In this document: in pieces, positions 52,107 through 64,000 of the stretch
Position numbering within the stretch: the first letter of the stretch is position 1
Layout: each line of letters starts with the position of its first letter
Source: Bacteroidia bacterium
GTDB taxonomy: Bacteria > Bacteroidota > Bacteroidia > B-17B0 > Aurantibacillaceae
Direction of reading: 5' to 3'
Assembly: GCA_016787895.1 (NCBI GenBank)
Contig: JAEUTN010000008.1
Span: forward strand, 62,001-126,000
DNA length: 64,000 bases
The notes under the pieces: generated by a model
Database searches by the model: none
The model's input: only the letters and a program-made list of their open reading frames with translations
What the model was told of the DNA's origin: nothing
Translations under genes and position numbers: made by a program

Positions 52107-53423
52107 ATGGACAGGCGACATTTTTTAATGGCCACGGCAGGTACGCTTTCCGCCATGGATTTTCTGGCAGGGATAAATGCGCCCTTCGCAAAGGAGCTTG
52201 AACACAAACTAAATTTGCTTGAAAGTGACAAGTCTGGTAAAAGCGCTGAAAATGAAGATTTCTGGGGCTGGGTCAGGGAATCTTACACCGTTTCTCCCAA
52301 CCTTATTAACCTCAACAACGGGGGTGTGGGTCCGCAACCGAAAGTGGTGCAGGACGCACACATTCGGTATTACCACTATTGCAACGAAGCGCCCTCGTAT
52401 TACATGTGGCGCATCCTCGATCAGGGGCGTGAGGGATTAAGAACCAAACTGGCAGAGCTTAGCGGAGTTTCGGCAGAAGAACTCGCCATTAACCGCAATT
52501 CCACCGAAGGATTAAACAGCATTATTTTCGGCCTGAGTCTGAAAGAAGGAGACGAGGTGGTGATGAGCACCTTTGATTACCCCAACATGATGAATGCCTG
52601 GAAACAACGGGAGATGAGAGATGGGGTAAAACTGGTGTGGATCAACATTCCCCAACCTCTGGAAGATGAAAAGGCCATTCTTAAACTGTATCAGGACGCC
52701 ATAACGCCCAAAACCAAAGTGGTTCACATTACCCACATGATTAACTGGACCGGGAACCTGGTTCCCTGTAAAGCCATCGCAGAGTACGCGCACAGCAAAG
52801 GCTGTGAAGTGATTGTGGATGCCGCGCATACCTTCGCCCACATTGATTTTAAAATTCCGGATACCGGCGCCGACTACCTGGCTACCTCTTTGCATAAATG
52901 GTTATGCGCGCCTTTTGGCAGCGGACTTTTGTACATTAAAAAGGAAAAAATCAGAAAGATCTGGCCCTTGTTGTCCAGCGCCGACCCGAACAGCAGCGAC
53001 ATACGAAAATTTGAAAACCTGGGCACCCGTTCCTTTGCCTCTGAAATGGCTATTGGAGCCGCTGTTGATTTCCACCAGGTCATCGGAATAAAACGCAAAG
53101 AGGCCCGATTGCGTTATCTGAAAGAATACTGGACGGATAAAGTCGAAAAACTTCAGAACGTGAACTTTTATTCTTCACTCAAACCCAAATTTTCCTGCGC
53201 TATTGCTAACATTGGATTTGAAGGCTGGCAGGCTCCTCAAATCGAAGCCCGTTTGTTCGAGCGATATAAGATTCATACGGTGTCCATTATTCATGAAGGC
53301 GTGAATGGCATTCGCGTTACGCCCAATGTATACACCAGCACCAGAGATCTTGATTTGCTGGTGAAAGGACTACTTGAAATTTCAAAATCACCCCCTCCAC
53401 CCAATCCCAAAAAAGAAGGATGA
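52107..53423 (+). CDS. Class V aminotransferase-fold PLP enzyme with Tat-like signal
   Basis: A 438-aa PLP enzyme of the class V (isopenicillin N epimerase/cysteine desulfurase-like) fold. Lys264 in SLHKW binds PLP; Asp238 is in VDAAH. The N-terminus MDRRHFLMATAGTLSAM carries the twin-arginine pattern RRxFL followed by a hydrophobic stretch, so export by Tat with cofactor bound is likely. It overlaps the next gene, a RidA with a membrane-type N-terminus, by 4 nt. Substrate unknown; these folds include epimerases and desulfurases. Confidence 0.87.
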   Translation: MDRRHFLMATAGTLSAMDFLAGINAPFAKELEHKLNLLESDKSGKSAENEDFWGWVRESYTVSPNLINLNNGGVGPQPKVVQDAHIRYYHYCNEAPSYYMWRILDQGREGLRTKLAELSGVSAEELAINRNSTEGLNSIIFGLSLKEGDEVVMSTFDYPNMMNAWKQREMRDGVKLVWINIPQPLEDEKAILKLYQDAITPKTKVVHITHMINWTGNLVPCKAIAEYAHSKGCEVIVDAAHTFAHIDFKIPDTGADYLATSLHKWLCAPFGSGLLYIKKEKIRKIWPLLSSADPNSSDIRKFENLGTRSFASEMAIGAAVDFHQVIGIKRKEARLRYLKEYWTDKVEKLQNVNFYSSLKPKFSCAIANIGFEGWQAPQIEARLFERYKIHTVSIIHEGVNGIRVTPNVYTSTRDLDLLVKGLLEISKSPPPPNPKKEG

Positions 53424-53863
53424 GAATGTTAATCATCTTAATGCTGTTTATCGCTCTTGTTGTTCTTTACTGTTCAAAACAAGAGGCCGTTTCCCGTAAA
53501 ATTATTGTGAGCACGGAGGCCCCTGCCGCCATTGGGCCTTACAGCCAGGCAGTAAAAGTCGGGGAACGAGTATATGTGTCGGGGCAGATTGCGCTTGACA
53601 AAAGCGGAAAACTGGACAGCAGTTCAGTAGCAGCAGAAACAGAAAAGTGTTTGCAAAACATCAAAGCCATTGTTGAAGCGGCGGGCTTTGATTTAAAAGC
53701 CGTTTCTAAATGCACTGTGTTTCTTACCGACTTAAACCGTTTTCAGGAAATGAACGAGGTGTATGCCCGCTATTTTCACGAACAAGCCCCTGCCCGGGAA
53801 ACCATAGGTGTAAAAGCTTTGCCCAAAGGTGCACACGTAGAAATTTCGGCGATTGTGAATTGA
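53420..53863 (+). CDS. RidA family protein with N-terminal export signal
   Basis: 147 aa: residues 1-18 form a hydrophobic segment (MLIILMLFIALVVLYC) then a complete RidA domain beginning IIVSTEAPAAIGPYSQAV. The catalytic Arg is kept (PARETIGVKALPKG) and the C-terminal HVEISAIV is typical. The Cys at residue 18 in VLYCS could be a lipoprotein anchor, though the lipobox is weak. RidA proteins hydrolyse enamine/imine intermediates from PLP enzymes. Its 4-nt overlap with the PLP enzyme gene supports a shared extracytoplasmic pathway. Confidence 0.9.
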   Translation: MRMLIILMLFIALVVLYCSKQEAVSRKIIVSTEAPAAIGPYSQAVKVGERVYVSGQIALDKSGKLDSSSVAAETEKCLQNIKAIVEAAGFDLKAVSKCTVFLTDLNRFQEMNEVYARYFHEQAPARETIGVKALPKGAHVEISAIVN

Positions 53864-54187: not shown

Positions 54188-55435
54188 TCATTCCTGCAAC
54201 CATGCAATCTCCCCGAATTTCTCGCTGTACTGCGACACTTCTGCTGAATTTGGAAGATCCATAAGCACAGCTGAAACATCTTCTGTAGTTAAGGTGCTTT
54301 GTAATTCCGCCAGGGTGATGATACCAATGGTATACGCCTGTTCCTTGTTTTTATACAACTCCTCTGTGTCTAAAAATTTTGATCGTACTTCATCTGAAGC
54401 TTCTCTCGGGTGGCGCAAAAGCACCCTGAGAAAAATGTTCTCAGACGCTTCCATTTCATTGTCCTCCTGCCTCTTTTTGTATTCGTAGCGGTAATTGTAT
54501 CGCAAGGCCGAAATATCGCTAAGTACCGCAGAGGCTGTTGGATAAGCCCCGGCGCCCCGGCCCACAAAAAACTGTTTATCGGCAAAACAGCCTTCAATCT
54601 GTAAAGCATTGTACACCTCATCCACCTGGTAAAACTTGTCGTTCTTACTAACAAATTCCGGTAACACAAAAGCACATACTTTCCCTGCTTCGTTTTTGAA
54701 GGCCCTGGCTTTCAGTTTTATCTTCAGGCCTTTTTCTCTGGCGTAGTTCAATTCCAGTTCCCCGAGTTTATTAATGCCCTGATGAAAAATCTGCTCCGGT
54801 TGAAGCACAATTCCAAAGGCATGGGCGATCAACAGCAGCAATTTGAATTTGGCGTCAAACCCTCCTGTGTCCAGTCTTGGATTGCTTTCGGCATAACCCA
54901 GCTCCTGCGCCTGCTGAAGGGCTTGTTGGTAACTCAGGTTTTCAGAAGCCGTTTTACTGAGGATGTAATTGGTACTGCCATTCACAATGCCTTCAATGGA
55001 ACGCAAGAGGTCGTTGTCGTAATATTCTTCCAGGTTACGAATAATGGGAATACTCGCGCATACGGCCGCTTCATACAAAAATGGTGTTTGGAATTGTTTT
55101 TGAAGCTCCAGCAATTCTTCAAAATGCTCGGCTATCATTTTTTTGTTGGCACTAACTACTGCCTTTCCATTGCATAAGGCTTGTTTTACAATTTCAAAAG
55201 CCGCGTCGGGGTCATCAATTAATTCCACCACCAGGTTAATCTCTGCGTCGTTCAGAATTTCCGACTTATCGTAACTGAACCATTCGGGCGCGAGACGTCT
55301 GCTTTTGTTTTTTTGTTTTACTACTATGGTTTTTATTTCCGCATCCAGCCCCGGGGTTTGTTGCAGTACCTCGTATAAGCCATGGCCCACGCAGCCAAAA
55401 CCAAATAATCCGATTTTTAATTTTTTAGTGTTCAT
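54188..55435 (-). CDS. hom: Homoserine dehydrogenase
   Basis: A 415-aa homoserine dehydrogenase. The Rossmann motif is GLFGFGCVGHGLYEVL at residues 9-24; the catalytic region KAVVSANKKMIAEH and GIVNGSTNYILSK and the following segment LGYAESNPRLDTGGFDAKFKL (key E, D, D, K) are diagnostic. A C-terminal degenerate ACT-like region follows (residues ~325-415). It reduces aspartate semialdehyde to homoserine for Met and Thr synthesis. It lies 9 nt after the gamma-synthase-type gene and is under the SAM riboswitch. Confidence 0.95.
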   Translation of the reverse strand: MNTKKLKIGLFGFGCVGHGLYEVLQQTPGLDAEIKTIVVKQKNKSRRLAPEWFSYDKSEILNDAEINLVVELIDDPDAAFEIVKQALCNGKAVVSANKKMIAEHFEELLELQKQFQTPFLYEAAVCASIPIIRNLEEYYDNDLLRSIEGIVNGSTNYILSKTASENLSYQQALQQAQELGYAESNPRLDTGGFDAKFKLLLLIAHAFGIVLQPEQIFHQGINKLGELELNYAREKGLKIKLKARAFKNEAGKVCAFVLPEFVSKNDKFYQVDEVYNALQIEGCFADKQFFVGRGAGAYPTASAVLSDISALRYNYRYEYKKRQEDNEMEASENIFLRVLLRHPREASDEVRSKFLDTEELYKNKEQAYTIGIITLAELQSTLTTEDVSAVLMDLPNSAEVSQYSEKFGEIAWLQE

Positions 55436-55444
55436 GGTATTGAA

Positions 55445-56611
55445 TCAGGCGGTGAATAAACTTGTTTTATATGCTTTTTGCAGGGCCTTTTCCAGATCCT
55501 GAATCAAATCATCAGCATGCTCCAGTCCAACAGAAAGACGAATCAAACTGTCTTTTACTCCTGAACTGTAACGTTTTTCTCTGGGTATGGATTTATGGGT
55601 CATTTCTGCCGGTAAACAAATCAAACTTTTTGCTCCTCCTAAACTTTCGGCCAGTTTAAACAAACCGGTTGAGCTTACTATTTTTTCCGCCAGCAATGCA
55701 TCGTCCTCTTTCAAATCAAACGCAATCACCCCACCAAAATAATGTTGTTGCCGGCATGCCACCTTGTGGTTAGCATGTGATGTTAATCCGGGATAATATA
55801 CGGTCTTCACCAATTGGTGTTGTTGAAGGTACTTCGCTACTTTCTGAGCATTCAGCGAATGTTGTTTTACCCTCAGTTCAAGGGTTTCAATTCCGCGGAT
55901 GACCAACCAGGAATCAAAAGGACCAAGGATGGATCCCGAGGCATTTTGTATGAACTTAATTTTAGCTCCCAGCTCTTTTGTTTTGGTAATCACCAATCCC
56001 GCAATCAGATCACTATGGCCTGATAAATATTTGGTGGCACTGTGAATCACGAGGTCAGCACCCAAATTCAAAGGTTGTTGCGAAACCGGTGAGGCAAAAG
56101 TGTTGTCCACACACAACAAAAGATGCTTCTCCTTCGCAATTTCCGCAATGCCTGCAATATCGGATACTTTTAGTGTAGGATTGGTAGGGCTTTCCAGCCA
56201 GATGAGTTTTGTGCGCGGATTGATGGCAGCGCTCACTTGTTTCAAGTCGGAAGTGTCGACATACCTCACATTGATGCCGAACTTTTCGTACACCTGTGTG
56301 AAGAGACGAAAGGCGCCCCCATAAATGTCGTCAACCGCAAGAATTTCGTCGCCCGACTTGAGCAGTTTTACCACCGCGTCAATAGCGGCTAATCCGCTGG
56401 CAAAGGCAAAACCACTGGCCCCGTTTTCCAGTTTAGCCGCAAGGTCTTCCAACACCTTCCGTGTGGGGTTATTACTTCTGGCATAATCAAAGCCTTTGTG
56501 TACGCCAGGACTTTGCTGAACAAAGGTGGAGGTTTGGTAAATGGGTACGGCGATGGAGCCCGTGAGTTCGTCGACAGGAATGCTGTGTAAGATGTTTGTT
56601 GATGTGTTCAT
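55445..56611 (-). CDS. Cys/Met metabolism PLP enzyme (cystathionine gamma-synthase / sulfhydrylase type)
   Basis: A 388-aa fold-type I PLP enzyme with PLP Lys194 in SATKYLSGHSD and Tyr in FDYARSNNPTR. The VPIYQTSTF start, GAFRLFTQVYEKFG and the C-terminal EKRYSSGVKDSLIRLSVGLE are typical of cystathionine gamma-synthase, O-succinylhomoserine sulfhydrylase and related lyases; these cannot be told apart with confidence. The SAM-I riboswitch upstream fits methionine synthesis. Transcribed with hom. Confidence 0.93.
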   Translation of the reverse strand: MNTSTNILHSIPVDELTGSIAVPIYQTSTFVQQSPGVHKGFDYARSNNPTRKVLEDLAAKLENGASGFAFASGLAAIDAVVKLLKSGDEILAVDDIYGGAFRLFTQVYEKFGINVRYVDTSDLKQVSAAINPRTKLIWLESPTNPTLKVSDIAGIAEIAKEKHLLLCVDNTFASPVSQQPLNLGADLVIHSATKYLSGHSDLIAGLVITKTKELGAKIKFIQNASGSILGPFDSWLVIRGIETLELRVKQHSLNAQKVAKYLQQHQLVKTVYYPGLTSHANHKVACRQQHYFGGVIAFDLKEDDALLAEKIVSSTGLFKLAESLGGAKSLICLPAEMTHKSIPREKRYSSGVKDSLIRLSVGLEHADDLIQDLEKALQKAYKTSLFTA

Positions 56612-57572: not shown

Positions 57573-58412
57573 TTAATTGACAATAATGAGTTTTTGACTA
57601 AGCGGTTTGCCTTCGCCGGATAACTTTAAAAAATACACGCCTTCTGAAAGTTCATCTAAACTCAGCAGTTTGCTGTGTTGTCCTTGCTCCTGTTTTCCCT
57701 CGTTAAACAATTTCAGTTCTTTTCCTGAAAGGTCGTAAATACTGATTTCAATGTGAGCCGATTGTTTCAAGGAATAATTCAAGCGGGTAATGCCATTGGA
57801 AGGTTGAGGATAAAAACTCATTTCCCCATACAGCAGACTGGCTTCGTTAATGGACACTGGGTCGATGGGCACCTGTGCCTGAAGCCCGAGTGAAACTGGG
57901 GTGATGGGAAAATCGCCCGAACTGCTGTTATTGCCGTTCACAGCATTGCCTGAAACGTATATGGTGGCCGCTCCACTTTGAGGGGCTACCCATTCAAAAC
58001 TGAAAACCGCTGAGCCTGAGTTAATTTTTCCCGTATTTTGCACCGCGTTTTTTCTAGCTCCTGAATTCAAAAACTTTACCCCGGCCCCCTGATTTTGCAT
58101 CAGACCCGCATTGGTGTTGGAAGCGTTTAAAATTTCGCATCCAAATCCGAATTTACTGAAACCCGTGGCCGATACGGTAATTTCAATGGTATACGTTGTG
58201 CCCGGCACATATTCATTGTTTGAAAAGGAAGGTGTTGAACTGATGCTGATGGCTGAAGCGGGTGATGACCCGCCGCTATGACAGCTGGCACAGGTTGCCT
58301 CTCCGGGAGAACCGGTGTATCCGGCAATGCCACTGTTGCTTAAAAACATAAAAGACCATCCTGATACCGAAACAAAGAGAAAAAGAAGAAAGAGCCGGAG
58401 TTTATTTTTCAT
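57573..58412 (-). CDS. Choice-of-anchor V protein with CXXCH motif and T9SS sorting domain
   Basis: A 279-aa exported protein. After the signal peptide (1-~20) comes GYTGSPGEATCASCHSGG with CASCH at residues 41-45, the c-type haem-binding motif. A reeler-like beta-sandwich follows (residues ~55-185; choice-of-anchor V type). The C-terminal ~85 residues form a T9SS type A sorting domain (YPQPSNGITRLNYSLKQ ... GVYFLKLSGEGKPLSQKLIIV). Whether haem is bound is not certain. Predicted to be at the cell surface. Confidence 0.85.
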   Translation of the reverse strand: MKNKLRLFLLFLFVSVSGWSFMFLSNSGIAGYTGSPGEATCASCHSGGSSPASAISISSTPSFSNNEYVPGTTYTIEITVSATGFSKFGFGCEILNASNTNAGLMQNQGAGVKFLNSGARKNAVQNTGKINSGSAVFSFEWVAPQSGAATIYVSGNAVNGNNSSSGDFPITPVSLGLQAQVPIDPVSINEASLLYGEMSFYPQPSNGITRLNYSLKQSAHIEISIYDLSGKELKLFNEGKQEQGQHSKLLSLDELSEGVYFLKLSGEGKPLSQKLIIVN

Positions 58413-58495: not shown

Positions 58496-59557
58496 ATGAA
58501 TCAGCCTACCTTACTTGTGGTAAGTCCGGGTTTTCCGGCGAACGAACAGGACAGTACCTGTCTGCCTGCTTTGCGTATGTTTTTAAAAGAGGAGTTGTTG
58601 CGTGAGCATTTCAACATCCGCGTCATCAGCATGCATTATCCTTTTCAGGCCGGGCAGTACACCTGGTTTGGTTTAAAGGTGTGGGCGCTGGCAGGTAAAA
58701 ACAAAAAAGGACTTTTTCGAATACCCCTCTATCTTAAAACCTGGGCGGCTTTACGAAAAAACAGAAACAAGGATGGCCTTACGGTTGTGCTCAGCATTTT
58801 TGCAAGTGAAGCCGCTTTGCTTGCCTCTTACTTTTCCAAAAAAAACAAGTTACTTCATTTTTGTTGGGTCATGGGGCAGGATGCCGGCAACAACAACCCA
58901 TATCATTCCATGTTCAGTTCTCAGATTCATTATTTGGTGATGTCCGAATTTTTAAAACAGCGGCTTGAACAGCACGGAAAACGAAAGGCCTTTGGCATCT
59001 TACCCTCCGCACTGTATGTGCAGGACCTACCTGCTTTTAAAACGAAAAAAAGAAATACTGATTTTGTTTGTGTGGGCTCACTTATTCCGCTTAAACGTGT
59101 GGAATGGGTTTTACAGGTGGTGCAGGATTTGAAAAAGGAAAACCTGAATGCTAAGGTGTGTATCATTGGCGATGGACCGGAAAGACAGGCCCTTGAAACA
59201 ATGAGCAGGAAATCCGGCATTTCAGAGCAGGTTCAGTTCAGGGGAGAAATTCAGCACAGAGAGGTGCTGAATGAAATGATGCAAAGTAAAATCGTACTGC
59301 ACCCCAGTGCATACGAAGGATTCGGAAATGTATTCCTCGAAGCGCTGTATTCCGGTTGTCACGTGGTGAGTTTATTTGATCCCTTTAACGAAAAACACCC
59401 TGAACTGCACAAGGTCGATTCTTATCCTGAATTTTATAGCATGGCCAGAACTTTGCTTCTGTCACAACTTGATCACCGCCCGGTACAAACCATCACAAGT
59501 AAAAGCACTGCCCATTCATTTATTGCTTTTGTGAAGAGCGCCGGTAATCCTGAATAA
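58496..59557 (+). CDS. Glycosyltransferase family 4 protein
   Basis: A 353-aa GT-B enzyme with a short N-terminal domain (TLLVVSPGFPANEQDSTCLPALR) and a GT4 C-terminal domain: VGSLIPLKRVEWVLQVVQDL, IIGDGPERQALE and the signature SAYEGFGNVFLEALYSGCHVV near residues 275-295. Acceptor and donor unknown. Its last 42 nt overlap the opposite-strand glycosyltransferase at 59516-60616, so the two are convergent. Confidence 0.9.
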   Translation: MNQPTLLVVSPGFPANEQDSTCLPALRMFLKEELLREHFNIRVISMHYPFQAGQYTWFGLKVWALAGKNKKGLFRIPLYLKTWAALRKNRNKDGLTVVLSIFASEAALLASYFSKKNKLLHFCWVMGQDAGNNNPYHSMFSSQIHYLVMSEFLKQRLEQHGKRKAFGILPSALYVQDLPAFKTKKRNTDFVCVGSLIPLKRVEWVLQVVQDLKKENLNAKVCIIGDGPERQALETMSRKSGISEQVQFRGEIQHREVLNEMMQSKIVLHPSAYEGFGNVFLEALYSGCHVVSLFDPFNEKHPELHKVDSYPEFYSMARTLLLSQLDHRPVQTITSKSTAHSFIAFVKSAGNPE

Positions 59558-60616
59558 GGATTTGGCAATGGCTTCAAAACTCAATTGCTCATTAAACTGT
59601 TTCAAAACTTTTTTCCGGGCTTGTGTTTTATCAAGAACCAATGATTTGGCTAACACTTCCTGCAACGATTTACGGCTGCCGGACTCATACATTAAAGCGC
59701 AGGCTCCGTTTGCCGTCATAAATTGAAAAGCCCCTATGGAAGGCACAAGGGGAATACATCCACAGGCCATGGCTTCGCAAAGCGCATAACCACTGCCTTC
59801 ATGTAGGGAAGCCGAAACAAAATAATCCGCCGCTGAATACCAGTCCCTGAGTTCTTCATGGGGCAGCCTGCCCAGAACATGTATTGTGTTATGGCCCCTG
59901 GTCAGATTAAGACATTCCTCCAACAGCGTTTCCTCATGGAAAATCACATACAAACGGGCAGAAGGCTGTTGTTTTAAAAACAGTACAAATTCTTCCAAAA
60001 AAAACAAGGGGTTTTTGACCGGAATCAATCGACCCACCCAGAGATAAATAATCTCCTTTTCAGGTAGTTTTAATTTATTTCTCGCTTCAGGCTGAGGTAC
60101 CACTTGAAAATCGCTTGAACCCTCCATCAGCAGAAAAGGTTTTTTTTGCGGCAGTCTTAATTGCCGGGCTGTTTCCTGTGAAGTAAAAAGAAAAGCATCA
60201 ACGAAAAGAGCACTTAACCTTAATAAGGTCATTTTTAAGAATCCTCTCGGACGTTCTCCGTGATGTTGAACCATAAGTTTAACCCTGCTGCCGAGCACCC
60301 ATCGCAAATGAACCACCTGAAGGTAATTGTTCAAACCATGTACCAGAACCACATCAGGATTTTCCTGTTTGATTTTTCTATGCAAATCCCCGGGTATACT
60401 AAGTTTATTGTATTTTTTGTTTTGAATCTTTAACCGGTAATCGTGTTCTTCCAGTTCCTCAGTAAACAGAGCGCATTTATAGGATACCCAATCGTAATTT
60501 TTACTGCATTGTTGCATCCATAGAAAGTTCAAAGGGATAGTTTCTTTCAACTCTGACAGGCTTTTTGCCTTCACCTGATGATAGGTGAGATCAATAAACT
60601 TCTCCTTTATCTCCAC
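59516..60616 (-). CDS. Glycosyltransferase family 4 protein
   Basis: A 366-aa GT-B enzyme with GT4 signature SLHEGSGYALCEAMACGCIPLVP near residues 265-290 and IIYLWVGRLIPVKNPLFFLEEF. The start is GTG at 60616. The first ~80 residues are less typical of GT4. It is convergent with, and overlaps by 42 nt, the GT at 58496-59557. Probably part of a surface glycan system with the adjacent genes. Confidence 0.88.
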   Translation of the reverse strand: MEIKEKFIDLTYHQVKAKSLSELKETIPLNFLWMQQCSKNYDWVSYKCALFTEELEEHDYRLKIQNKKYNKLSIPGDLHRKIKQENPDVVLVHGLNNYLQVVHLRWVLGSRVKLMVQHHGERPRGFLKMTLLRLSALFVDAFLFTSQETARQLRLPQKKPFLLMEGSSDFQVVPQPEARNKLKLPEKEIIYLWVGRLIPVKNPLFFLEEFVLFLKQQPSARLYVIFHEETLLEECLNLTRGHNTIHVLGRLPHEELRDWYSAADYFVSASLHEGSGYALCEAMACGCIPLVPSIGAFQFMTANGACALMYESGSRKSLQEVLAKSLVLDKTQARKKVLKQFNEQLSFEAIAKSLFRITGALHKSNK

Positions 60617-60764: not shown

Positions 60765-62264
60765 GTGCTGAAAATTTTACTTTTTAATCCCAGGGCGGCA
60801 AATTACAAACCACGGATACCCAATAGTATTCTCCAAATCGCCGCTTCCATTGAGGGTCTTCACGAATACATCATTGTTGACGGCAATCTTGAGAGCGATC
60901 CCGAAACCGTCATCCTCAACTACTTTGCCAAAGAAAACATTGCCGTTTTTGCTTGCACGGTGATGCCCGGCCCTCAATTAAAACAGGCCATTCCCATTTC
61001 AAAAAAACTCAAAAACCTTTACCCCCAGCTTAAAATCGTGTGGGGCGGTTATTTTCCTTCCAATCAACCCGGCTCCGTTTTGCGCTCGGGCTATGTGGAT
61101 GTGATTGTGAACGGACCGGGAGACAAAGCTTTTCCTGCTTTGCTCAGAGCCTTTGAAGAACAGAAGTCATTTGAAGGAATCAACAACCTGATCTATCTGG
61201 AGAATGACAAGATTGTCAAAACAAAAAAAGATGAGCTTTATGATCTGGACGCGCTTCCGGCTCTGCCTTATGATACACTTAATTCATTTTATCCCATAAA
61301 ACGGTATTTGGGCAAAACCTATCTTGGTAAAAACACCATTGCTTACCACAGCAGTTTCGGTTGTCCCTTCACCTGCTCCTTCTGCGCTGTTGTGCCCATT
61401 TACAACGCACGATGGAAAGGCAAATCCGCTGAAGGAATTTATAAGGACATTCTTTACCTCAAAACCAAATTCGGAGGCGATGCAATTGAGTTTCACGACA
61501 ACAACTTTTTTGTTTCCGAAAAACGCGTGGTTGAATTTGCCAGACGCATTAAAAATGAAAACATGGTGTGGTGGGGAGAGGCCAGAATAGACACCATGTA
61601 CAAATACAAGGACGAATCCCTGGCCCTGATTCGCGAAGCCGGTTGTAAGATGATTTTTTTTGGTGCAGAAACTGGCAACGACGCTTTGCTGGATAAAATG
61701 CAGAAAGGCGGCACACAAACCGGGGAACAGATTCTGAAATTTGCCGAGCGCTTAAAACAATTCGACATCATTCCTGAATATTCTTTTGTTTTGGGCACCC
61801 CGGCCGAAACCGATGAAGAAGTTGAAAAACAAATCGATGAGGACATTGCTTTTATCCGGCAGGTGAAAGCCATCAATCCCAACACGGAGATTATTATTTA
61901 TACATACAGCCCTGTGCCAACTGAGGGTTCTGACATGTACAACAAGGTACTGGCCAGTGGGTTTCGTTTTCCTGAAAAACTCGAAGACTGGATTTCTCCC
62001 GAATGGGAAAACTTTGACCTTCGTAAAAATCCTCTCACGCCCTGGTTAAAACCACACATGATTGATAAGATCCGGAATTTTGAAACCGTGCTTAACGCCT
62101 ATTATCCAACGGTTTCAGACCTGAGGGTAAAATCCTGGCAGAAAAATCTTTTGCGTCGCTGGGGTGCACTGCGTTATCATTCCCGCATTTATACTTTTCC
62201 ATACGAAATAAAAGTGTTGCATAAGTTATGGAAATACCGCCTTCCTGAAATAGAAGGTTTTTAA
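60765..62264 (+). CDS. B12-binding-domain radical SAM protein
   Basis: 499 aa from a GTG at 60765 (a CTG follows). An N-terminal Rossmann-type B12-binding domain (residues 1-~150, ILLFNPRAANYKPRIPNS and VWGGYFPSNQPGSVL) lacks the DxHxxG base-off motif, as is usual in this class. The radical SAM core has CX3CX2C at Cys200, Cys204 and Cys207 (SFGCPFTCSFC), and FFGAETGNDALLDKM. Such enzymes often methylate unactivated carbons or perform cyclisations. Substrate unknown. First gene of an operon with the next two. Confidence 0.9.
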   Translation: MLKILLFNPRAANYKPRIPNSILQIAASIEGLHEYIIVDGNLESDPETVILNYFAKENIAVFACTVMPGPQLKQAIPISKKLKNLYPQLKIVWGGYFPSNQPGSVLRSGYVDVIVNGPGDKAFPALLRAFEEQKSFEGINNLIYLENDKIVKTKKDELYDLDALPALPYDTLNSFYPIKRYLGKTYLGKNTIAYHSSFGCPFTCSFCAVVPIYNARWKGKSAEGIYKDILYLKTKFGGDAIEFHDNNFFVSEKRVVEFARRIKNENMVWWGEARIDTMYKYKDESLALIREAGCKMIFFGAETGNDALLDKMQKGGTQTGEQILKFAERLKQFDIIPEYSFVLGTPAETDEEVEKQIDEDIAFIRQVKAINPNTEIIIYTYSPVPTEGSDMYNKVLASGFRFPEKLEDWISPEWENFDLRKNPLTPWLKPHMIDKIRNFETVLNAYYPTVSDLRVKSWQKNLLRRWGALRYHSRIYTFPYEIKVLHKLWKYRLPEIEGF

Positions 62265-62272
62265 ATAAACGC

Positions 62273-63319
62273 ATGGCTTCCTTCAACCCCGTTGATACCT
62301 ATAAACGCTACCGCTCCCTCAGCAGTCACCGCATCAGCAGTTTGCCCATACTGATTCTGATGCCGCACAGCGCCTGCAATTGCCGCTGCATTATGTGCGA
62401 CATCTGGAAGGACAACAAAAACCTCAAACAACTTAAGGAAGAAGATATTCAAAACCTGCTCGCTTCCATTCAAAAACTGAACACCAGGCTGGTACTCATG
62501 TCGGGTGGAGAAGCTTTGCTTAATCAAGGATTTTTCGAACTATGTGCACTGCTTAAAACGCTGGATGTAAAAATCTCTTTGCTTTCCACTGGACTGAGTT
62601 TAAAACAACACGCTGAAAACATTGTCAAATACCTCGATGATGTGATTGTTTCCGTTGACGGAACAGAAGTTATACACAACAAAATACGCCGCATCCCCCA
62701 TGCTTTTGCCAAATTAAAAGAAGGCATAGAAACCATCAAAGCGCTGGACCCTAAATTCAGAATCAGTTCACGCACCGTTATTCAATACGAAAATTTCAGG
62801 GCCTGGCCGGAGATGATTCGTGTGTTGAAGTCGCTTGGACTCAATCAACTCAGCTTTTTACCGGCCGATGTGAGCAGCACCGCGTTCAATCACAGTACTC
62901 CGGGTGTTTTAGAGGAGGGAATAAAACTTCTGCCTGATAAAAACGAACTTCCTGAGCTGAATTCCATTATAGAACAAGTGATAACGGAATTTGCCATGGA
63001 TTTTCAAAACAAACGCATTGCTGAGTCGCCTCAAAAACTCAGGGACTTAGGCAAGTATTATTCGGCCATGCATGGCTTAAATGCATTTCCTGAAAAACCC
63101 TGTAATGCCCCCTGGGTTTCGGCGGTAATTGAGGCCGATGGCACATTACGGCCTTGTTTTTTCCTCGAGAGCCTGGGAAACATTCATGCCTCTTCCTTTG
63201 AACACTTATTAAATTCAGAGCAAAGTCGTGAGTTCCGGAAACAATTAAACACCGCCAAACATCCGGTTTGTGAGCGCTGTGTGTGTTCGCTTTACCTATC
63301 ACCCCTCAAACACCTCTAA
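62273..63319 (+). CDS. Radical SAM protein with SPASM-type C-terminal domain
   Basis: A 348-aa radical SAM enzyme with the cluster-binding CX3CX2C at Cys35, Cys39 and Cys42 (SACNCRCIMC) and MSGGEALLN after it. The C-terminal part carries additional Cys (PCNAPWVSAVIEADGTLRPC and VCERCVCSLY) as in SPASM/twitch domains. SPASM enzymes modify peptides or small molecules, often making maturases or sugar/lipid-acting enzymes. It starts 8 nt after the B12 radical SAM gene, in the same operon. Confidence 0.9.
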   Translation: MASFNPVDTYKRYRSLSSHRISSLPILILMPHSACNCRCIMCDIWKDNKNLKQLKEEDIQNLLASIQKLNTRLVLMSGGEALLNQGFFELCALLKTLDVKISLLSTGLSLKQHAENIVKYLDDVIVSVDGTEVIHNKIRRIPHAFAKLKEGIETIKALDPKFRISSRTVIQYENFRAWPEMIRVLKSLGLNQLSFLPADVSSTAFNHSTPGVLEEGIKLLPDKNELPELNSIIEQVITEFAMDFQNKRIAESPQKLRDLGKYYSAMHGLNAFPEKPCNAPWVSAVIEADGTLRPCFFLESLGNIHASSFEHLLNSEQSREFRKQLNTAKHPVCERCVCSLYLSPLKHL

Positions 63320-63320
63320 G

Positions 63321-64000
63321 ATGTTTCAAAAAGGGCTTCGTTTTGCTGTGAGTACATTTTACAAACCTTTCGTGAAATTGTATTTGCGAAAAAAAAGACC
63401 CTTCCGATACAAAGGCTTGAAGTTGATGGTTGAGCCCGGCGTTTTTCATCCCGGTTTTTTTTTCAGCAGCAAAGTCATGCTGCATTTTCTTGACACCCTT
63501 TCACTTAAAGGTCTCAAAGTGCTTGAAATAGGCTCCGGGAGTGGCATCCTTTCGCTCTACTGCGCGAAAATGGGAGCAGAGGTGACGGCTTGCGACATCA
63601 GCTGTACAGCTTGTGAAAACACTAAAGCGAATCAGCTGAAGAATGGATTACGATTCAATGTCCTGCATTCTGATTTGTTTTCCTCTCTGCCTGCACAAAG
63701 GTTTGACCTTATTTTGGTAAATCCTCCCTATTATAAAAAAACACCCCGTAACGATTCAGAACACGCCTGGTATTGCGGTGAAGAGGGAGAGTATTTTGAA
63801 CGGTTTTTTCGTGACCTAAACACCTTTATCCATAAGAGCAGTCAGGTGTACATGGTTTTGTTCGATGGCATCGATCTTCAGATGATAGAACGCCATGCCA
63901 AAAAAAATCGTTTCGCCTTTACCAGTGTGTATTCCGAGAACAACTGGATAGAACGGAATTTTATTTTGCGTATTGAATCCAGCCCTGCAGGAAACGTATA
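63321..64000 (+). CDS. Class I SAM-dependent methyltransferase (HemK-like), 3' end cut off
   Basis: At least 226 codons from the ATG at 63321, 1 nt after the stop of the SPASM gene, running off the right edge. SAM-binding motif GLKVLEIGSGSGILSLYCAK (residues ~65-84) and the HemK/PrmC-type NPPYY motif near 139-143 place it with the N6-adenine/N5-glutamine-type methyltransferases. Target unknown. Position in an operon with two radical SAM enzymes suggests a natural-product or lipid-modifying pathway rather than PrmC itself. Confidence 0.85.
   Translation, partial: MFQKGLRFAVSTFYKPFVKLYLRKKRPFRYKGLKLMVEPGVFHPGFFFSSKVMLHFLDTLSLKGLKVLEIGSGSGILSLYCAKMGAEVTACDISCTACENTKANQLKNGLRFNVLHSDLFSSLPAQRFDLILVNPPYYKKTPRNDSEHAWYCGEEGEYFERFFRDLNTFIHKSSQVYMVLFDGIDLQMIERHAKKNRFAFTSVYSENNWIERNFILRIESSPAGNV

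Follow-up and report, generated by a model that had tools for sequence, protein, structure and literature searches.

The closest described relatives of the central enzymes reported here are the cobalamin-dependent radical SAM enzymes, which carry out some of the hardest C-H reactions known and few of which have assigned substrates; according to a published account (PMC13331322), they comprise methylases and others, and the residue under the cobalt is variable. We analysed a stretch of 64,000 nucleotides (hereafter the window; contig positions 62001-126000 of a 3.6 Mb source genome) that ends in genes A, B and C (Table 1). A preliminary description had read these three as one compact unit of B12 radical SAM protein, SPASM radical SAM protein and HemK-like methyltransferase, adjoined by two glycosyltransferases and continuing beyond the window.

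Layout of the locus

The compactness of A, B and C was borne out by the ORF listing, with gaps of 8 nt (A-B) and 1 nt (B-C), and the two adjoining upstream genes, GT1 and GT2, were both GT4-type by Pfam. When the contig was read further, the cluster proved to continue rightwards past the window with D, E and F on the same strand. Coordinates in the window's own locus, L004, are converted to window coordinates by adding 57000.

Table 1 Genes of the locus, in window coordinates
Gene	Encoded protein	Position	Strand	Remarks
A	B12-binding radical SAM protein	60765..62264	+	499 aa; GTG start; core
B	Radical SAM/SPASM protein	62273..63319	+	348 aa; accessory
C	MTS-fold methyltransferase with NPPYY	63321..64000	+	226 aa; core; stop ends at 64001
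D	Winged-helix and nucleotidyltransferase protein (predicted)	64111-65034	+	Beyond the window; core
E	Second B12-radical SAM protein (predicted)	65031-66515	+	Beyond the window; core
F	Second methyltransferase (predicted)	66517-67338	+	Beyond the window; core
GT1	GT4-type glycosyltransferase	58496..59557	+	Recurrent partner of the locus
GT2	GT4-type glycosyltransferase	59516..60616	-	Recurrent partner; convergent with GT1

A, B and C are not chance open reading frames, since A shares 66-77% identity with the 16 Bacteroidota homologues aligned to it and B and C are also conserved. For gene C the ORF caller offered a longer alternative GTG start at 63270, which would overlap gene B; in most homologues the start coincides with the ATG equivalent to 63321 or lies close to it. 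The stop codon of C ends one base past the window (L004 7001, window 64001). The coding ends of GT1 and GT2 overlap by 42 nt (59516-59557), and the same facing pair recurs in relatives. Directly after the cluster lies a gene for a 241-aa protein without a Pfam match (L004:10405-11130, +), followed by genes on the opposite strand. A promoter and terminator scan gave results near shuffled expectation, and a tRNA scan found none.

Several other features were recorded in the window. Just upstream of the cluster, 57573-58412 (-) encodes a T9SS-sorted protein with a Por_Secre_tail domain, a weak Reeler match and a heme-like CASCHSGG motif; loci L040 and L068 have homologues of it (42-46% identical) close to the core too. 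A homoserine dehydrogenase gene adjoins one for a Cys/Met-metabolism PLP enzyme at 54188-56611 (-), 4 kb from the cluster, and its nearness to a cluster that would use much SAM is probably a coincidence. At 52107-53863 (+), 5 kb from the cluster, a class V aminotransferase gene and a RidA-family (Ribonuc_L-PSP) gene overlap by 4 nt. At 34%, the G+C content of segment 4001-8000 is below that of the remaining window (39-47%).

Conservation and co-occurrence of the core genes

Relatives of A numbered 527 confirmed cases in the genome collection; the 80 best of them, together with the window locus, formed an 81-locus survey, which is biased to close relatives because only the best 80 were taken and in which many loci reach contig ends. 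By record names these 80 include Niastella, Terrimonas, Mucilaginibacter, Dyadobacter, Puia and many MAGs; we take the genera to belong to Chitinophagales, Sphingobacteriales and Cytophagales. Across the 81 loci, A was present in 81, C in 65, E in 62, F in 60 and D in 58, followed by B (37), GT2 (28), GT1 (25), a further methyltransferase, M (24), and the 241-aa protein family (7). C lay directly after A in 62 places in this survey, and neighbouring core genes mostly overlapped or were separated by less than 20 nt. Loci from further members of the phylum, some outside the class, kept D-E-F together with A and often added GT87, GT9, M, GT1 or an amidohydrolase/methyltransferase pair.

Co-occurrence was then counted, as matches within each E-value limit, in all 65 genomes of the order with at least 90% completeness. 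A was found in 29 of them, C, D and E in 30 each, F in 27, GT1 in 14, B in 6 and M in 4. All five of A, C, D, E and F were present in 26 genomes and none in 34; 31 had at least one, and the five partial cases were G308 and G314 (without a match to F), G013 (A and C only), G052 (C, D and E) and G059 (D, E and F). D and E coincided in 30 of 30 genomes (Fisher p of 3e-19, a measure that ignores shared ancestry). The link within the core is not only physical, because two genomes keep both halves though far apart: G018 has A-C-D on contig C1 and E-F-E2 (E2 being a third B12-radical SAM protein, see below) on C74, away from contig ends, and G001 has A-C-D and E-F-E2 on different contigs (C67 and C6). 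All GT1-positive genomes were core-positive; GT1 was absent from 17 of the 29 genomes with A and lay on a contig other than that of A in G018, G033, G004 and G013.

A, C, D, E and F are thus a near all-or-nothing module with a patchy distribution across Bacteroidota. A draw across the phylum contained A in 12 of 247 genomes and 11 of 122 genera; with 29 of the 65 order genomes positive and so few across the phylum, A therefore marks an accessory module, not housekeeping. The proposed natural unit of three genes fared less well. A and C do belong together (C was found in 29 of 29 genomes with A), and these two are neither scattered in relatives nor housekeeping genes, whereas scattering applies halfway to B, which is accessory because it occurs in only 6 of the 65 genomes, all of them core-positive. 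The A-B-C unit was therefore abandoned; the natural unit is the conserved core A, C, D, E and F, of which D, E and F lie outside the window.

In a search for relatives outside the phylum, D had no match among plasmids by tblastn, whereas A matched 10 records with roughly 24-27% identity whose gene contexts differ, none of the three examined resembling the locus; no relatives were found in viral contigs. A description of the cluster was not found in the open-licence PMC literature. The cluster is real, conserved, larger than first described and, as far as our literature searches reach, uncharacterised. A defence role was considered and rejected, as the surroundings of the cluster do not form a defence island and the PADLOC hits, B to pVip (52.1 bits) and C to mad2 (70.9 bits), are weak and at superfamily level.

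Protein assignments

A and E each matched Pfam B12-binding and Radical_SAM, in the order typical of class 1 enzymes, with the B12-binding domain N-terminal, and the CxxxCxxC motif was located in A (residue 200), in E (residue 214) and also in B. The structure model of A (mean pLDDT 81.8) has the B12-radical SAM fold, the top 17 Foldseek rows all being TsrM, MgmA, OxsB, AprD4, CysS or TokK; for E, a sequence profile matched MgmA (1.4e-23) and also AprD4, OxsB and CysS. Domains and motif thus predict both proteins to be class 1 cobalamin-dependent radical SAM enzymes, with the modelled fold adding to the case for A. Many relatives encode E2 (L036:15261-16676, L064:15480-16889 and others), which the window locus lacks and whose nearest NCBIfam model is the PhpK P-methyltransferase (175 bits against a cut-off of 600). 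The best NCBIfam scores were 115.6 bits for A, 161.5 for E and 175.3 for E2, against cut-offs of 481.35-600, so none of the three reached the cut-off of an equivalog (BchE, HpnJ, PhpK, ApyD, AprD4, HpnR and others). No curated NCBIfam cut-off was reached by B, C, F or M either, and D had no NCBIfam match at all.

The residue facing the cobalt in OxsB is Asn186 (PMC13331322). In a HMMER alignment Asn77 of E lies opposite this residue and E2 also has Asn there; A, read by eye, has Thr-Val/Ser-Met at that position. E could conceivably be OxsB-like rather than a methylase, a weak lead because an alignment gap stands beside the position.

B exceeded the Pfam gathering scores for Radical_SAM (57.1 bits) and SPASM (49.7 bits); its profile was nearest to the solved structures of SkfB (4e-13) and BlsE, a cytosylglucuronate decarboxylase (1.4e-10), and its best NCBIfam score was 74.3 bits against a cut-off of 306. 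Another SPASM radical SAM protein, B2, is paired with a lipoprotein-like gene without a Pfam match (L095:7392-9664, +); in L068, L095 and L099 the pair adjoins the core or lies close to it.

C matched the Pfam MTS (methyltransferase small) domain, and direct reading of its sequence confirmed the NPPYY motif (N134-Y138), in which N134, P135 and P136 show no variation across 14 homologues and conservation of Y137 is 90% or more. The earlier label of HemK-like holds at the level of fold and motif: C carries the NPPY motif of HemK/PrmC glutamine methyltransferases, and its nearest matches are MJ0882, N6AMT1, RsmC and HemK. It does not extend to the family models, whose HemK/PrmC scores (60.3 of 115.5 and 69.6 of 199.1 bits) are far below cut-off. 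F matched Methyltransf_25.

D is the least understood part of the cluster. It matched Pfam NTP_transf_2 (22.6 bits, gathering score 21) and has a GS...DxD motif whose G112, S115, D124 and D126 are invariant in 14 homologues. In its structure model (pLDDT 89.7) a winged helix is joined to an ANT(4')-like nucleotidyltransferase domain, and the structure matches divide in the same way, some covering residues about 1-72 (winged-helix proteins) and others 84-206 (aminoglycoside nucleotidyltransferases; 6un8, Z 7.9), with no full-length match in the PDB. Middling Z values of this kind are common, and we therefore claim no function from them.

Possible products and comparison with known systems

Wzy, Bac_transf and several glycosyltransferases side by side are usual for surface glycans. 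Beside the core in relatives we found GT4, GT2 family, GT9, GT87, Bac_transf, Wzy_C, Polysacc_deac_1, GNAT, amidohydrolase and an ABC exporter, the last nearest to the MsbA, CydD and PglK models and below their cut-offs. The 61 of 81 loci of at least 18 kb were compared with 40 control regions at set positions in four genomes. At least one glycan gene lay in 50 of the 61 core loci and in 7 of the 40 control regions, at a density of 15.7 against 1.0 per 100 kb, a contrast that is inflated because the HMMs were built from families of the core loci themselves; the broad GT4 model alone gave 28 of 61 against 5 of 40. Wzy was present in 20 and Bac_transf in 24 of the 61 core loci. Within the 20 kb read around the window's own locus, GT1 and GT2 were the only glycan genes, and exporter, Wzy and Bac_transf were not found. 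This counts against a glycan product, as do the 11 of 61 core loci lacking any such gene and the 17 of 29 A-positive genomes lacking GT1.

We tentatively infer a glycan product rather than a free small molecule, and read the locus, with some way to go to conviction, as a patchily distributed Bacteroidota system for making or tailoring a glycan or glycoconjugate that is exported, A and E performing C-H chemistry. On a sugar or carrier-linked intermediate, A and E would most likely catalyse C-methylation or a ring or carbon rearrangement, and C and F (with M in relatives) would use SAM to methylate N, O or C atoms. D might attach a nucleotide to the intermediate or to a partner protein or, alternatively, protect the product. 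GT1 and GT2 would add sugars, elongating or capping, B would contribute an optional further radical step, and in relatives the MsbA/PglK-type ABC exporter, the polyprenyl-phosphate sugar transferase and the Wzy/WaaL-type protein would carry the product outwards.

A lesser but serious possibility is that the cluster makes, protects and exports a glycosylated small-molecule natural product, for instance an aminoglycoside- or nucleoside-like metabolite, using the B12-radical SAM proteins, an N-methyltransferase, the ANT-like nucleotidyltransferase, GNAT, deacetylase, amidohydrolase and ABC exporter. Many core loci indeed have few glycan genes nearby: 11 of 61 had none detected by the glycan HMMs, and in loci such as L086 and L104 no polysaccharide genes lie close to the core. 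Planar nitrogens are frequent targets of NPPY-type methyltransferases, which also counts in favour of a small molecule. So do the profile matches of E to AprD4 and OxsB and of B to BlsE, the resemblance of D to ANT(4') over residues 84-206, and an amidohydrolase partner with a weak aminofutalosine-deaminase match, but all of these stay at superfamily level, far below curated cut-offs, and Wzy, Bac_transf and several glycosyltransferases stand beside the core in many relatives.

A RiPP matured by the B12-radical SAM and SPASM enzymes is improbable. Such enzymes do mature peptides elsewhere, the profile of B matches SkfB, and GT2 matches TIGR04157, a radical-SAM-cassette glycosyltransferase, at a score below the cut-off. 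Against this, the preliminary remark that no precursor peptide is visible was upheld across the survey: among 681 small-ORF candidates in 133 intergenic gaps of core runs, none matched in more than three other loci, two hits being fragments of the M methyltransferase that had been overlooked and a third a fragment of a different coding stretch that had likewise gone unrecognised. B is moreover optional (six of 65 genomes), and Pfam results for the locus and its relatives contain no leader-binding, peptidase or RiPP family. Hopanoid-type lipid tailoring (an HpnJ-like cyclitol ether or HpnR methylation) is scarcely credible: HpnJ ranks high among the NCBIfam models matched by A, E and E2, but at 113-137 bits against a cut-off of 577.6, and hopene cyclase was found in none of the 65 genomes of the order (E 1e-20) by a search that did find it in the Bacillus subtilis control. 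The lack of a conserved precursor peptide and of hopene cyclase is what disfavours these two readings.

The glycan or glycoconjugate reading has a bolder form, which we hold to be doubtful, namely a new pathway whose two or three B12-radical SAM enzymes would work together with the winged-helix nucleotidyltransferase as one obligate module. This module would act on an intermediate bound to a carrier, and the exported product would bear modifications at carbon that are new to bacterial surface sugars. The module occurs in culturable genera (Niastella, Mucilaginibacter, Dyadobacter), so the pathway is testable by simple gene deletions, and a surface glycan as product would bring radical carbon chemistry to that field.

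Set beside known systems, A and E share domain order and CxxxCxxC motif with the class 1 cobalamin-dependent radical SAM enzymes (TsrM, TokK, CysS, OxsB, MgmA and AprD4-like), and A shares their fold, whereas neither reaches an NCBIfam cut-off. TIGR04295 (B12_rSAM_oligo), whose name presumably points to oligosaccharide loci, belongs to the same superfamily, but A, E and E2 score 42.6-81.6 bits against its cut-off of 400. B is a radical SAM and SPASM protein like those of the BlsE/SkfB type and differs in staying below the NCBIfam cut-off and in having no precursor peptide found with it. Relatives resemble Wzy/O-antigen-like polysaccharide loci in the Bac_transf, Wzy_C, GT4/GT2 family and ABC exporter genes beside the core, whereas the conserved core here consists of two to three B12-radical SAM proteins and a winged-helix nucleotidyltransferase; we know of no glycan locus with such a core, and none was found described in the open-licence PMC literature. 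In kind, the cluster is a multi-radical-SAM tailoring cluster, a type already known.
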